In this document: in pieces, positions 9,778-16,030 of the stretch | Layout: the number at the start of each line of letters is the position of its first letter | Position numbering within the stretch: the first letter of the stretch is position 1 | Assembly: GCA_001314865.1 (NCBI GenBank) | Contig: LJZR01000001.1 | Span: 1 to 64,000, forward strand | Reading direction: 5' to 3' | Source of the DNA: Phormidesmis priestleyi Ana | Lineage (GTDB): Bacteria; Cyanobacteriota; Cyanobacteriia; Phormidesmidales; Phormidesmidaceae | DNA length: 64,000 nt | Notes under the pieces: generated by a model | Told to the model about the DNA's origin: nothing | Database searches by the model: none | What the model saw: only the letters and a program-made list of their open reading frames with translations | Program-made: the position numbers and the translations under genes

Positions 9778-10479
9778 CTACTTCGACTTCGTAACGCTCT
9801 CGGATTGAGAGTAGCGACCGTTACGGCCTCGGTACCAGGTGCCGTCACGCGCACCGCCCGACAAAATGTTGGAGATTCGATTGCGCGCCTTAAGATAGGC
9901 ATCTCTGGGCATATCTTCAGTAAAAATAGAAGACATAACATCAGCGATCGCAAAGATCTCCGATGGCTGAGCGCGCAAAACGCTACTCACTGCCTCTGGC
10001 AAAGCAGCCTCACCAAAGTCGGATTGAACATATTTTTGCCAGTCAGCAGCTCGGCCATCTTTCTTTTTCTTTTGCGCTGTCTTTCTAGGGACCGGCTTTT
10101 TCTCGGCACTGGCTTTTTTGGCAGATATCTTAGTTTTTTTTGATGGGGTTGTTGCTGGGGTTTTTGATGTTTTTTTTGCTGGGGGTTTTTCTGGGGGAGT
10201 GCTTTCGGCTTTGTCGGCGGTTGCGCCAGATTGGGCTGTTCTTTTTGTCGTCAACCGACTTGTGCGTGCGGCGGACGGTTTTTCCGCAGATGATGTTGTG
10301 GGTTCAGCACTCGGTGGCTCACTACCGGCTGGGTCATCCGTTTTTTGAAACATGTCAATTACAGTACGCAGCCCAAGCCGTTGCGATTCAATCGCAGCGA
10401 GTTGAGATTCTAAATTCTCGACCTGTTGGGATAGATCATCCTCAACAGCAACGAGTTGAGACAGGACAGGATCACTCAT
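9778..10479 (-). CDS. Histone-H1-like protein with C-terminal winged-helix-like domain, paralogue A
   Basis: 233-residue protein with three parts. An N-terminal coiled coil (about 5-45) ends in RTVIDMF. A long Lys/Ala/Pro/Ser/Thr-rich low-complexity linker (about 50-145) resembles histone H1 tails. A conserved C-terminal domain (about 148-228) contains ADWQKYVQ, IADVMSSIF, KARNRISNILSGGARDG and WYRGRNGRYS. The last domain resembles small winged-helix modules of the HARE-HTH kind; this is my reading, not a database match. A same-length paralogue lies at 13184-13885 on the opposite strand. Inference: a DNA-binding, nucleoid-associated or regulatory protein. Directly downstream of nothing operon-like. 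Confidence 0.75.
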   Translation of the reverse strand: MSDPVLSQLVAVEDDLSQQVENLESQLAAIESQRLGLRTVIDMFQKTDDPAGSEPPSAEPTTSSAEKPSAARTSRLTTKRTAQSGATADKAESTPPEKPPAKKTSKTPATTPSKKTKISAKKASAEKKPVPRKTAQKKKKDGRAADWQKYVQSDFGEAALPEAVSSVLRAQPSEIFAIADVMSSIFTEDMPRDAYLKARNRISNILSGGARDGTWYRGRNGRYSQSESVTKSK

Positions 10480-10881
10480 TTTTCAAAGTCCTCATTACAA
10501 ATTTCCTCTGAACGGAAGTTTAGCGGGCGGTTTAACAGGCGCTTCTACGGTTAATGCAGCAGATAGCTCAATGGTCGGTTCAATGGTTCGGCTCACCAAT
10601 CGCGGCTCAACCGCCTACTCAATCGGTTCACTTAATAAGTAATCAGTCAACTCAATTAAATTAACTCAATTAAATCAACTCAATTAAATCAACTAAACTA
10701 AACAGTACAATTAGCACTCGTTATGCTTGCATCCGCCAAGCTGATGATATGTTCACTCCCGATATCTTTAGTAAAGATACCTTCAGTCAAGATACCTTTA
10801 CTCAGTGAGTGTAGCGCTTTCCGTAACGTTTGCTGCGTTGGCTCAACAATCTCGTAACGAAAATCTTGCAATATCTAAATA
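10480..10881. other. Intergenic region with two tandem arrays
   Basis: Region between purU and paralogue A, both on the minus strand. It holds 14-bp units (CAACTCAATTAAAT, three copies, 10648-10689) and 15-bp units (GATACCTTTACTCAG-like, three copies, 10761-10805). No gene seen. The promoter of the histone-like gene should lie here. Confidence 0.7.
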
Positions 10882-11742
10882 TTAGCGAAACACAATCGTT
10901 TTGCGCTCATGGAGCATAACGCGATCTTCAATATGGTAGCGAAGCCCTCGGGCAAGAACTGTTTTTTCAATATCTTTTCCACAGCGAGCCAGATCTTCCG
11001 GAGAGTCTGAATGGTCAATCCTCAGAACATCTTGATCAATAATGGGGCCGCAGTCTAGCTCTTGAGTGACATAGTGGCAGGTTGCACCGATGAGTTTTAC
11101 GCCACGGTCATAAGCCTGATGGTAGGGCTTTGCGCCGATAAAAGAGGGAAGAAAGGAATGGTGAATGTTGATGATCCGACCTGGGTAGCGATCGCATACG
11201 GCCTTCGACAAAATTTGCATATAGCGCGCAAGCACCATTACATCGGCCTGCGACGATTCAAAAAGGGTCACCATTTTGTCGTAGGCAACAGCTTTTGTGT
11301 CTGGCGTCACAGGAACATGATGATATGGCACACCATGCCACTCTACGAGACCTCTAAAAGTGTTGTGGTTGGAGATGACACAGGCAATGTCGATCTCTAG
11401 TTCTTGCGATCGCCAACGAGAAAGTAGGTCATACAAGCAGTGACCACTTTTAGACACCAAAATAGCCACTCGCTTCTTTTGCGCAGAGTCTCGAATGGCC
11501 CAGTCCATTTTAAACTGCTCAGCAATCGGCAAAAAGCGTCTGCGCAGCTCATCAATTGGGAACGAAAGAGAATCACTTAGAATCTCTTGACGCATAAAAA
11601 AACGCGCACCTGCCTGCTCTGAGTGGTGCTGAGCCTCACTAATCCAGCCGTTGTTCGCCGCGATTAGGCCACTGACTGCCGCAACAATGCCAACCCGATC
11701 CGGGCATGAAAGGGTCAAAATATAGCGCCTTGAAGAAGTCAT
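10882..11742 (-). CDS. purU: Formyltetrahydrofolate deformylase (PurU)
   Basis: Hydrolyses 10-formyl-tetrahydrofolate to formate and tetrahydrofolate, balancing one-carbon pools and supplying formate for purine synthesis. The N-terminal ACT domain (about 5-85) starts RYILTLSCPDRVGIVAAV. The C-terminal formyltransferase-like domain (about 90-280) has NIHHSFLPSFIGAKPYHQA and GATCHYVTQELDCGPII, containing the conserved catalytic His and Asp. Length of 286 aa is normal. Start ATG at 11742. No neighbour is metabolically linked. Confidence 0.93.
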   Translation of the reverse strand: MTSSRRYILTLSCPDRVGIVAAVSGLIAANNGWISEAQHHSEQAGARFFMRQEILSDSLSFPIDELRRRFLPIAEQFKMDWAIRDSAQKKRVAILVSKSGHCLYDLLSRWRSQELEIDIACVISNHNTFRGLVEWHGVPYHHVPVTPDTKAVAYDKMVTLFESSQADVMVLARYMQILSKAVCDRYPGRIINIHHSFLPSFIGAKPYHQAYDRGVKLIGATCHYVTQELDCGPIIDQDVLRIDHSDSPEDLARCGKDIEKTVLARGLRYHIEDRVMLHERKTIVFR

Positions 11743-11865
11743 AAATTATCAGGGGCAGCGATCGCCCAAGCTAAAGATAGCGATGATTTGGTTAGATCAA
11801 GTAGTATCGCCCAAGTTGGTATACTCCTAGCAATCGACTCTCTCAAGCCATCCCATAATATTCGT

Positions 11866-11905
11866 CATCGCCTATCCAGTCATCGCCTATCTAGTCATCG
11901 CCTAT
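11866..11905. repeat. 15-bp tandem repeat overlapping a start codon
   Basis: Units CATCGCCTATCCAGT occur two and a half times. The last partial copy supplies the ATG at 11904 of the next gene. Confidence 0.85.
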
Positions 11906-12536
11906 GCAACCCTTCAAAGATTCAGACGACGACTCAGCGAATCATACAAATGCCCCCTTTGTAGGCAGCTCAACCGACCAAACCGTCAAACCGTTAACCG
12001 CCTACTCATTCGCGTCTTACTATGTGCTGCTGCTGTTTATTCCAGCAGGCATCCTGTTACTGTTCACGACAGTGACTGCACAGACCGCAGCAGAAAGGAT
12101 TTTAGCGATCGCCCTCACCTTGTTTTGCCCTGAACTAGCCCACATGGCTCAGGTCGATTTAGAGAATATTCGTTTGCATGGGCACCTGCAAGACTCTCGA
12201 CTCCAGCGCTTTCGCAAAGTAACAACAAGTACAGTTGTTCTAGAATTAATCGGATTATATGTAGCCCTTTTCTCCCTTCGGTGGGGAACTGTTGTGATTA
12301 TCGCCAGTCAGCTTTGGTTTAACCTACTGGCAAACATTCAACTCTCTCCTGGCGCCTCGCCCGCTGTAATCCCCTTTGGAATTGCCGATAGAAAGGCAAT
12401 CCTAATCGCCAACACAGTTGGCTTGAGCCTACTTTTATTGTGGCCGATTGCAGCGGCCCAAGCATGGCTAGCATCAGGGCTGTTGCTGCTGATTGCTCTC
12501 TTTTTAATCATTAAATACTGGATCGTTAAATCCTGA
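11904..12536 (+). CDS. Hypothetical polytopic membrane protein
   Basis: 210 residues, no recognised family. A polar N-terminus (about 1-35) rich in Asp, Ser and Thr is followed by about five hydrophobic segments (roughly 38-60, 65-82, 108-130, 160-178 and 180-205). A conserved-looking loop, HMAQVDLENIRLHGHLQD, lies between the second and third segments. Start at ATG 11904, inside a short tandem repeat, without a clear Shine-Dalgarno. Neighbours give no functional clue. Confidence 0.6.
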   Translation: MQPFKDSDDDSANHTNAPFVGSSTDQTVKPLTAYSFASYYVLLLFIPAGILLLFTTVTAQTAAERILAIALTLFCPELAHMAQVDLENIRLHGHLQDSRLQRFRKVTTSTVVLELIGLYVALFSLRWGTVVIIASQLWFNLLANIQLSPGASPAVIPFGIADRKAILIANTVGLSLLLLWPIAAAQAWLASGLLLLIALFLIIKYWIVKS

Positions 12537-13183
12537 TCGATGGAGGCTGAACCCAATACCCCAAGTAAGTCGCAATTCCGCAGCCGAGGGATCATTCAAT
12601 CATGACCCACTCAAGGGTAGCCAAACAGGGTTGGGGATATGAGGGCTTCGGCCATAATGACAGATGGGACATTGTTAAGGCGCACTTCCTGTATTTGTTC
12701 GTGCCTCAAAGGGATTCCTTTAGAGTTCCAAAGGAGCTGACGCCTGAAGAAACTCTTTTGACGAAGCTTTCAACGAAGCTTTTAACGAAGCTTTTAACGA
12801 AGCTTTGGATAGAGTAAAGAAAGAAAATTACCCGCCCAAACACCCAATAAGGCGAATTTGACCGTGATCTTGCCTATTTTTTCAAAAAAGAGCAAAAAAA
12901 GACTTGCTTAAAAACGAGAAAGTGTTTAAATAGTGCTATTCTCGAAAAAGATATTTTTCCAAAAGCCTTTCAAGCAATTTTCTATACTCAAAATGGCTCT
13001 TCTAGATCTGTTTTGAGAAAAGCTGTTCGTTATAGAGCTGTTTGCAAGAAGATTCTTTTGTACTTGAGTAAGCGTTTTTAAGCGCTTGCAGAGCCAGAAG
13101 CGCTTAATCGCTGGCTTAATTGCTGATGGAATCATCCATAGTTTTTCATATTCTCAACTCATTAAACAAGGAGAAAGTCGTAT
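12537..13183. other. Intergenic region upstream of paralogue B
   Basis: Contains a 71-codon open frame (12602-12817) that I do not believe codes, because its end is four 12-bp repeats ACGAAGCTTTTA (12761-12808). The 12840-13180 part is A/T-rich with several AAGCGCTT-type short palindromes (13070-13115). It probably holds the leader and promoter of the downstream histone-like gene. That gene has a strong AAGGAG site at about 13169. Confidence 0.6.
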
Positions 13184-13885
13184 ATGTCTACATCTGTTTT
13201 GCCGCAGCTTTTAGAAGTTGACTCCGAGCTGTCGGCGCAGGCAAGTGCCCTACAAGCACAGCTAAATGAACTGCAAGAAAAGCGCAAAGGGATTCAAACT
13301 GTTATTGACATGTTTGAATCAAAGGGTGGTTCTGAGTTAGCGGAAATTGCCGCGGTGACTGTACCGGTTGTGGCAACTAAACCTGCGGTAAAAACGGCTC
13401 CTAAAAAGGCAACTCCCGCAAAATCAGCAAAAGAAGTAAAAGCACCCAAGGCAGCAACGAAGGCCAAAACAGTCAAAGCGCCCAAGGAGGGAACAGTTGC
13501 CAAGGTCAAAGCAAGCCGGGGGCGTCCTGCTAAGGTCAAGACTAAAGCGACGAAGGCAGCCGTCACTAGCCCCAAGAAAACTGCTGAAAGCAAGCGCAGT
13601 GGTGGTCGCACTGCTAATTGGCAGCGCTATGTACAAGATAGCTACAGCAAAGCGCCCTTACCTGACGTGATTGTTGGCGTGTTGCAAGCACAGCCCAACC
13701 ATATCTTTAAAATTGCGGATGTTATGAGCGTCGTGTTCAAAGAAGATATGCCTGAGAATCAGTTCTTAAAGGCTCGCAACCGCGTTTCTAATATTCTGTC
13801 AGCGGGTGCGCGTGAGGGTGATTGGTATCGCGGTCGTGGGGGTACTTATAGCGTTTCGGAGAAAGCTATCAAAGCAGCAGGCTAA
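13184..13885 (+). CDS. Histone-H1-like protein with C-terminal winged-helix-like domain, paralogue B
   Basis: 233 residues, the same length and architecture as the protein at 9778-10479. An N-terminal coiled coil (SVLPQLLEVDSELSAQ to QTVIDMF) is followed by a Lys/Ala/Pro/Val-rich linker (about 60-145) with repeated APK, KVK and KA motifs. The C-terminal domain has ANWQRYVQ, IADVMSVVF, KARNRVSNILSAGAREG and WYRGRGGTYS. The C-terminal domains of the two paralogues are far more alike than their linkers, as expected if the linker is a flexible basic tail. A strong ribosome binding site, AAGGAGAAAG, fixes the ATG at 13184. Likely DNA-binding, by inference. Its long A/T-rich leader contrasts with paralogue A. 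Confidence 0.78.
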   Translation: MSTSVLPQLLEVDSELSAQASALQAQLNELQEKRKGIQTVIDMFESKGGSELAEIAAVTVPVVATKPAVKTAPKKATPAKSAKEVKAPKAATKAKTVKAPKEGTVAKVKASRGRPAKVKTKATKAAVTSPKKTAESKRSGGRTANWQRYVQDSYSKAPLPDVIVGVLQAQPNHIFKIADVMSVVFKEDMPENQFLKARNRVSNILSAGAREGDWYRGRGGTYSVSEKAIKAAG

Positions 13886-13929
13886 ACCCTTTACTAATAG
13901 ACGCATGCTCAATGTTTGATAGGCCAATT

Positions 13930-14013
13930 GGCTTATCAGACATTGGCTTATCAGACATTGGCTCATCAGACACTGGCTCATCAGACACTGGCTCATCAGA
14001 CACTGGCTCATCA
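13930..14013. repeat. 5.5 x 15-bp tandem repeat downstream of paralogue B
   Basis: Units GGCTCATCAGACACT, the first two reading GGCTTATCAGACATT, head to tail between converging genes. Copies are near identical, suggesting recent expansion. Confidence 0.95.
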
Positions 14014-15784: not shown

Positions 15785-16030
15785 TTAAGTGCGGGGTCTG
15801 GCCTTGTTCACTTTTAGAGTGCGCCCCATCCATTCGGCCCCATCAAGGGCATCTATGGCTGCTTGTTCTTCACTTTCTGCGCCCATTTCAACAAAGGCAA
15901 AGCCTCTGACTCGGCCCGTTTCACGATCGGTCGGTAGCTTGACAGACTTGACCGAACCGTACTCTGCAAAGACCTGATTGATGTCCTCCTGAGTAGCATC
16001 AAAAGACAGGTTTCCAACATAAATTGACAT
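15785..16030 (-). CDS. RRM RNA-binding protein, cyanobacterial Rbp type
   Basis: 81-residue protein that is almost entirely one RNA-recognition motif. RNP2 is IYVGNLS (residues 3-9) and RNP1 is RGFAFVEM (about 43-50), the aromatic residues of which stack on RNA bases. The short tail KARPRT lacks the glycine-rich extension of some cold-induced Rbp proteins. Cytoplasmic; family members bind transcripts in cold response or target thylakoid-protein mRNAs. It is preceded by an unusually long untranslated region and followed by the strong hairpin at 15677-15722. Which Rbp subtype it is cannot be decided here. Confidence 0.92.
   Translation of the reverse strand: MSIYVGNLSFDATQEDINQVFAEYGSVKSVKLPTDRETGRVRGFAFVEMGAESEEQAAIDALDGAEWMGRTLKVNKARPRT

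Follow-up and report, generated by a model that had tools for sequence, protein, structure and literature searches.

Paralogous coiled-coil/winged-helix proteins A and B of Phormidesmis priestleyi belong to an unnamed multicopy cyanobacterial family and may act as DNA-bridging proteins

Two genes of Phormidesmis priestleyi Ana, here referred to as A and B, form a genuine paralogue pair and, as far as sequence comparisons can tell, represent a widespread, multicopy, and unnamed protein family that is found on cyanobacterial chromosomes and plasmids. They are encoded within a 64,000-bp stretch of one contig (the window), and their products combine an N-terminal coiled coil with a disordered linker and a C-terminal winged helix, so that the structural reading of this pair in an earlier note on the same DNA is largely right. 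Judging by analogy, there is an even chance that A and B are dimeric DNA-bridging nucleoid proteins or silencers that resemble H-NS and Rok in their way of working and not in family membership.

The earlier note had described two paralogous open reading frames (ORFs) of 233 residues each on opposite strands, and both are present exactly at the coordinates listed in Table 1. The sequence motifs said to be shared by their products (LRTVIDMF/IQTVIDMF and the C-terminal block IADVMS..F.EDMP....LKARNR.SNILS.GAR.G.WYRGR.G.YS) are real in the A/B alignment, and the two proteins are 42% identical over 238 columns (BLASTP E value of 2e-56). Among orthologues, the pN/pS ratios for the coiled coil, linker, and winged helix are 0.14, 0.60, and 0.16, respectively, in B and 0.28, about 0.61, and 0.16 in A. 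Such purifying selection on both ends of the proteins, with a much less constrained middle, supports the view that both ORFs are coding.

Table 1. Positions of the A and B genes and of their predicted parts and flanking elements in the window
Feature	Position	Strand	Basis or remark
Gene A, 233-aa coiled-coil/linker/winged-helix protein	9778..10479	-	ORF
Winged-helix domain of A, C-terminal ~90 aa	9781..10059	-	Alignment with B; A3 profile E value of 3e-29
Conserved non-coding block 5' of A	10797..10860	-	Conserved in six genomes aligned, alignment A5
Non-coding block 5' of B	12916..12958	+	Common to two congeners (G003, G006), alignment A4
AAGGAG ribosome-binding site of B	13168..13173	+	Sequence; kept in most B orthologues
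Gene B, 233-aa coiled-coil/linker/winged-helix protein	13184..13885	+	ORF; AlphaFold model
Coiled-coil helix of B, residues 6-46	13199..13321	+	AlphaFold helix, heptads
Disordered Lys/Ala-rich linker of B, residues about 47-143	13322..13612	+	pLDDT about 50
AT-hook-like core R112-G-R-P115 in the B linker	13517..13528	+	Kept in 5/6 B orthologues
Predicted winged-helix domain of B, residues about 141-233	13604..13882	+	AlphaFold pLDDT 93.8, pTM 0.85

In the full-length model of B, obtained with AlphaFold2 from a 46-member alignment, residues 6-46 form a single 41-residue helix (pLDDT of about 95 over residues 11-40) with a clear, near-perfect heptad pattern. Positions 9, 16, 23, 30, 37, and 44 are hydrophobic in 99% of the alignment cells, and positions 27 and 41 are likewise invariantly hydrophobic. 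The helix and its heptads bear out the N-terminal coiled coil suspected earlier, through which these proteins probably dimerize; this segment is acidic in 45 of the 46 members. The flexible middle is similarly supported by the disordered, low-pLDDT linker of the B model, which is 31% identical among B orthologues versus 78-84% in the flanking parts. Linker length also drifts across the members, and its net charge ranges from about -15 to +21 over the 46 members and from -11 to +14 within the A orthologues alone. Since total linker charge is not conserved, the H1-like basic linker of the earlier note holds for A and B and does not hold as a family trait. The second half of the linker is basic in 44 of the 46 members, and for the final 20 residues ahead of the winged helix this holds without exception.

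In B, the winged helix covers residues 145-232. The isolated C-terminal domain, modelled by AlphaFold with a 32-member alignment that included distant relatives (A3), came out as a confident winged helix (pLDDT 93.8), in agreement with the winged-helix-like end proposed before. The domain model contains helices at domain positions 19-29, 37-44, and 51-71, with strands around the wing, that is, a helix-helix-long helix layout and a beta-hairpin, the three-helix bundle plus wing of a winged helix. In Foldseek comparisons with the PDB, the best fold matches were mostly winged helices (E values of 0.06-0.8), including Z-alpha, LACTB2, the PhiH1 repressor, OmpR-type and MarR-type domains and, in the first search, linker histone H1.0; no match fell below an E value of 0.001, so that the fold class is supported and the domain is not placed in a named family. 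Several other matches were O-methyltransferases, presumably through their small winged-helix domain.

The HARE-HTH domain (PF05066, found in RpoE delta and ASXL), which the earlier note had named for comparison with the C-terminal end, has a winged-helix layout of similar length and can be aligned collinearly with the family domain over 70 columns, not significantly (P value of 0.06 in the profile comparison). PF05066 produced zero matches at an E value of ≤1 in the genome, and HARE-HTH membership was accordingly rejected. The same comparison bears on the idea that A and B are RNA-polymerase- or protein-associated factors similar to the delta subunit RpoE, whose winged helix would bind protein or polymerase and not DNA. 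RpoE, which consists of a HARE-HTH winged helix and a charged disordered region, is a weak fold match (rank 33), and the linkers of A and B are charged and disordered as well. However, PF05066 fails to detect the family in the genome, helix 3 and the pre-domain tail are basic and not acidic, and the multicopy, plasmid-borne distribution is unlike that of a polymerase subunit, all of which makes such a role unlikely.

Searches of Pfam, NCBIfam, PHROG, and PDB sequences with the single proteins and two alignments yielded only low-complexity or chance matches; no model in these collections recognizes A or B, in keeping with the earlier description of the family as uncharacterized. Among known silencers, the Rok family was rejected, its WH_Rok domain (PF23159) having only a chance match elsewhere in the genome (E value of 0.9; in the WH_Rok control, one control genome passes the cut-off), as was membership in H-NS or Lsr2, for which PF00816 and PF11774 gave no match above the cut-off in the genome. 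No relative turned up in direct searches of phage records with the proteins or in a scan of viral contigs with a short conserved motif, and a viral origin thus found no support. A literature search found no description of the family, its text queries being ill suited to an unnamed protein and its coverage incomplete. The predicted fold and the family are established at the level of sequences and models.

The earlier view of a two-gene affair was correct as regards the paralogy of A and B and too narrow in scope, as the two belong to a multicopy family that is itself part of a wider superfamily including tandem-domain proteins. The genome of P. priestleyi Ana carries five full family copies and one fragment, and members were detected in all 7 genomes of the genus. 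Of the 65 genomes in the GTDB family, 21 have members; the highest number of matches per genome is 13, fragments included, and one large genus has none. Fragments were found in two genomes. This patchy distribution, which weighs against the bridging reading, shows that the family is no universal housekeeping nucleoid protein. The A/B pair lies in a conserved block in 7/7 congeners, with the order, as far as the contigs reach (some end inside the block), ribD, a thioredoxin-like gene, DUF92, A, purU, a membrane protein gene, B, and, 3' of B, genes for a second membrane protein, an RRM protein, a glyoxalase-like protein, and a lipase; the exceptions are one congener missing a purU match and one missing the second membrane protein. 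The syntenic RRM RNA-binding protein gene near B (window 15785-16030) is 86-90% identical across the congeners that have it. In one congener (G005), the B orthologue is interrupted, with two pieces in different frames (L109:1933-2726), and purU also looks split; the interruption could be either real or an assembly error.

In phylogenetic analysis, the A orthologues from 7 genomes form one clade (support values of 100/99), the B orthologues a separate clade (99/97), and a third clade (100/99) consists of extra copies, several of which are near-identical and lie on separate contigs of a single genome. In genome G001, near-identical copies are located on three contigs (L047, L048, and L050); two have transposase-like ORFs next to them and the third has topA-like and UmuC-like ORFs nearby, a pattern that suggests spread between replicons. 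A further copy in the genome of strain Ana (L043:6087-6734, contig 108 of G000) directly follows genes that, as read from sequence alone, encode phycobiliprotein-subunit-like and phycobilisome-linker-like proteins.

The domain profile found relatives in 56 of the 386 sampled cyanobacterial genomes, among them many of one Nostocales-type family; as the profile included proteins of some matched genomes, this count describes distribution and is not independent proof of homology. Homology across the superfamily is supported independently by the A1 single-domain profile, which was built without the Nostocales and tandem types and nonetheless matched them (best per-genome E values of 1e-8 and 5e-14, respectively), and by profile comparison (E values of 2e-9 to 4e-11). 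In these proteins, a coiled-coil-like helix at the N terminus is combined with one to three copies of the domain. A different architecture is seen in one fusion protein (L053:5043-6032, contig 79 of G002), in which a ComJ-like domain (PF11033, E value of 1e-4, below the cut-off) precedes this winged helix.

With the Nostocales homologue as the query, homologues annotated as "hypothetical protein" were found on 21 plasmids from Nostoc, Trichormus, Halotia, Gloeocapsa, Rippkaea, and Acaryochloris; B itself as the query gave no plasmid match. A superfamily protein with two domains (L157:4362-5621) adjoins parA, parB, and topA on the Gloeocapsa plasmid pGLO7428.02. No generally conserved neighbour gene was found at eight sampled loci outside the genus, nor any conserved operon for the Nostocales homologue, as would be the case for a stand-alone regulator. 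Plasmid homologues, one of them adjoining parAB and topA, the fragments in two genomes, and the near-identical copies beside transposase-like genes on several replicons of one congener would also fit maintenance or accessory proteins of plasmids or mobile elements that were domesticated on the chromosome. Such an origin, which is compatible with DNA bridging, is nevertheless improbable, even more so than the polymerase-associated role: in 7/7 genomes, A and B occupy a conserved block and are under purifying selection, and the Nostocales homologue is widespread without a conserved plasmid context.

The closest architectural analogues of A and B are Rok and H-NS, not H1. Histone H1 and bacterial H1-like proteins share with A and B a winged helix and Lys/Ala/Pro-rich disorder, and H1.0 was among the weak fold matches, but a basic linker is not conserved in the A/B family. 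H1 and H1-like proteins are not known to have an N-terminal coiled coil. Rok, a xenogeneic silencer of Bacillus subtilis, has the same N-terminal oligomerization region, flexible linker, and C-terminal winged helix preceded by a basic stretch, and it also occurs as chromosomal and plasmid-borne paralogues (PMC6212790, PMC6936261). Rok contacts the minor groove of DNA with three elements, namely helix 3, wing W1, and the basic tail that precedes its domain (PMC6212790), and the conserved basic residues of A and B fall in the corresponding parts. The two differ in that there is no sequence relationship (WH_Rok has no real match in the genome) and in that the linker of Rok is neutral, whereas the A/B family is charge asymmetric. 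Charge asymmetry, with an acidic N terminus versus a basic linker end or DNA-binding domain, has been reported for H-NS, MvaT, and Lsr2 (PMC6936261). A and B share with these proteins the order of parts and the acidic-to-basic asymmetry, a likeness of anatomy from which function is drawn by analogy; their domain is a predicted winged helix and not the H-NS or Lsr2 fold.

By this analogy, A and B may bind DNA with a preference for AT-rich sequences, bridge it, and silence genes. The N-terminal helix would pair two subunits in a coiled coil, and the disordered linker would allow the two C-terminal winged helices to reach separate DNA sites. Contacts with DNA would be made by the basic stretch ahead of the winged helix, by helix 3 (K196, R198, R200, R210), and by the wing (R216-G-R218), while in B the RGRP core of the linker would add minor-groove, AT-leaning affinity. 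The winged helices of the dimer could keep two DNA segments together or coat a single one, with an AT-rich preference that would be stronger for B. The outcome would be a nucleoid organizer, or a silencer of AT-rich or acquired DNA, with a broad AT-leaning preference, and plasmids would carry extra copies of it.

Support for DNA bridging comes from the combination of the N-terminal helix with its hydrophobic heptads, the disordered linker, and the confident winged helix with conserved basic residues (98-100% of members have a basic residue at protein positions 198, 200, 210, and 216, and, with electrostatics of the DNA face judged from sequence, the winged helix is basic in 45 of the 46 members), as well as from the H-NS-like asymmetry between the acidic coiled coil and the basic pre-domain stretch, the AT-hook-like cores, the multicopy, plasmid-borne homologues, the absence of conserved neighbours around the Nostocales homologue, and the lack of H-NS, Lsr2, or Rok matches above the cut-off in the genome. 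Several observations weaken it: the Foldseek matches are generic, and there are winged helices that bind protein or RNA; only 26 of the 51 members carry an RGR-type motif in the wing; and neither A nor the multicopy third subfamily has the AT-hook-like motif, which is sub-threshold in Pfam (AT_hook, PF02178, 14.6 bits and an E value of 0.03 on the B fragment, with a cut-off of 17.4). In B orthologues, the RGRP core persists although the linker otherwise drifts, and RGRKP is present in 7 relatives of a sister clade. Overall, [KR]GRK?P is found in 13 of 51 members versus a mean of 0.2 (maximum of 3) expected in shuffled linkers, these 13 being related sequences and not independent events.

It is also quite possible, if rather less than probable, that A and B are dimeric sequence-specific transcription factors, each with its own operators and a limited regulon, in which the linker serves only as a spacer. 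Winged helices of this size are most common in specific regulators, which account for many of the fold matches, the leaders of A and B are distinct and each is conserved, and one copy adjoins the phycobiliprotein-like gene cluster. However, a long low-complexity linker, charge asymmetry, and an AT-hook-like core would be unusual for a one-site factor, the proteins are devoid of ligand or signal domains, and the basic residues of helix 3 are nearly identical across the paralogues, whereas paralogues that have diverged in specificity usually differ there.

The contrast between the leaders noted earlier, a strong AAGGAG and an A/T-rich leader of about 650 bp for B versus repeat-rich DNA before A, is real in all its parts. 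AAGGAG lies 10 nt ahead of the start codon of B, and A has a weaker GAGG-type site that is kept in most A orthologues. The B leader (12537-13183) is 647 bp long with 59.5% A+T, and its final 365 bp reach 64.4% A+T, the 99th percentile of the window; the A leader contains tandem repeats with 14-bp and 15-bp units (10647-10702 and 10761-10800). Each leader has its own conserved non-coding block, and neither has an Rfam match. The strongly conserved block between purU and A (core GCGCTACACTCACT) could be a promoter or operator. Just 3' of B, at 13929-14013, there is a 15-bp tandem repeat of 5.7 copies (TGGCTCATCAGACAC). Unequal expression of A and B is plausible, given their distinct conserved leaders.

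Two cyAbrB proteins are encoded in the genome of strain Ana. According to a 2024 study, the nucleoid-associated proteins of cyanobacteria remain unidentified, and cyAbrB2 of Synechocystis was proposed for this role (PMC11368403). cyAbrB2 (PF14250) resembles the reading favoured here for A and B in its proposed role of coating AT-rich DNA (PMC11368403), but it belongs to the unrelated AbrB family. The presence of this already proposed H-NS-like system weakens the case for bridging by A and B; with two cyAbrB genes in the genome, the two systems would coexist.

There is a real prospect, though short of an even one, that these proteins constitute a new cyanobacterial class of H-NS/Rok-like bridging silencers, in which a coiled coil is joined to one to three winged helices that form a new family. 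Such a class would be widespread in the Nostocales-type family sampled and expanded in some Leptolyngbya-like genera, with stealth copies on large plasmids, and A and B would be its division-of-labour versions, B with and A without the AT-hook. The family is larger and more widely spread than the two-gene view suggested. Chromosome organization and the silencing of acquired DNA in cyanobacteria are largely open problems, for which a widespread family that lacks models, has the anatomy of a bridging silencer, and occurs in plasmid-borne copies offers testable candidates, including those in the tractable Nostoc/Anabaena relatives.
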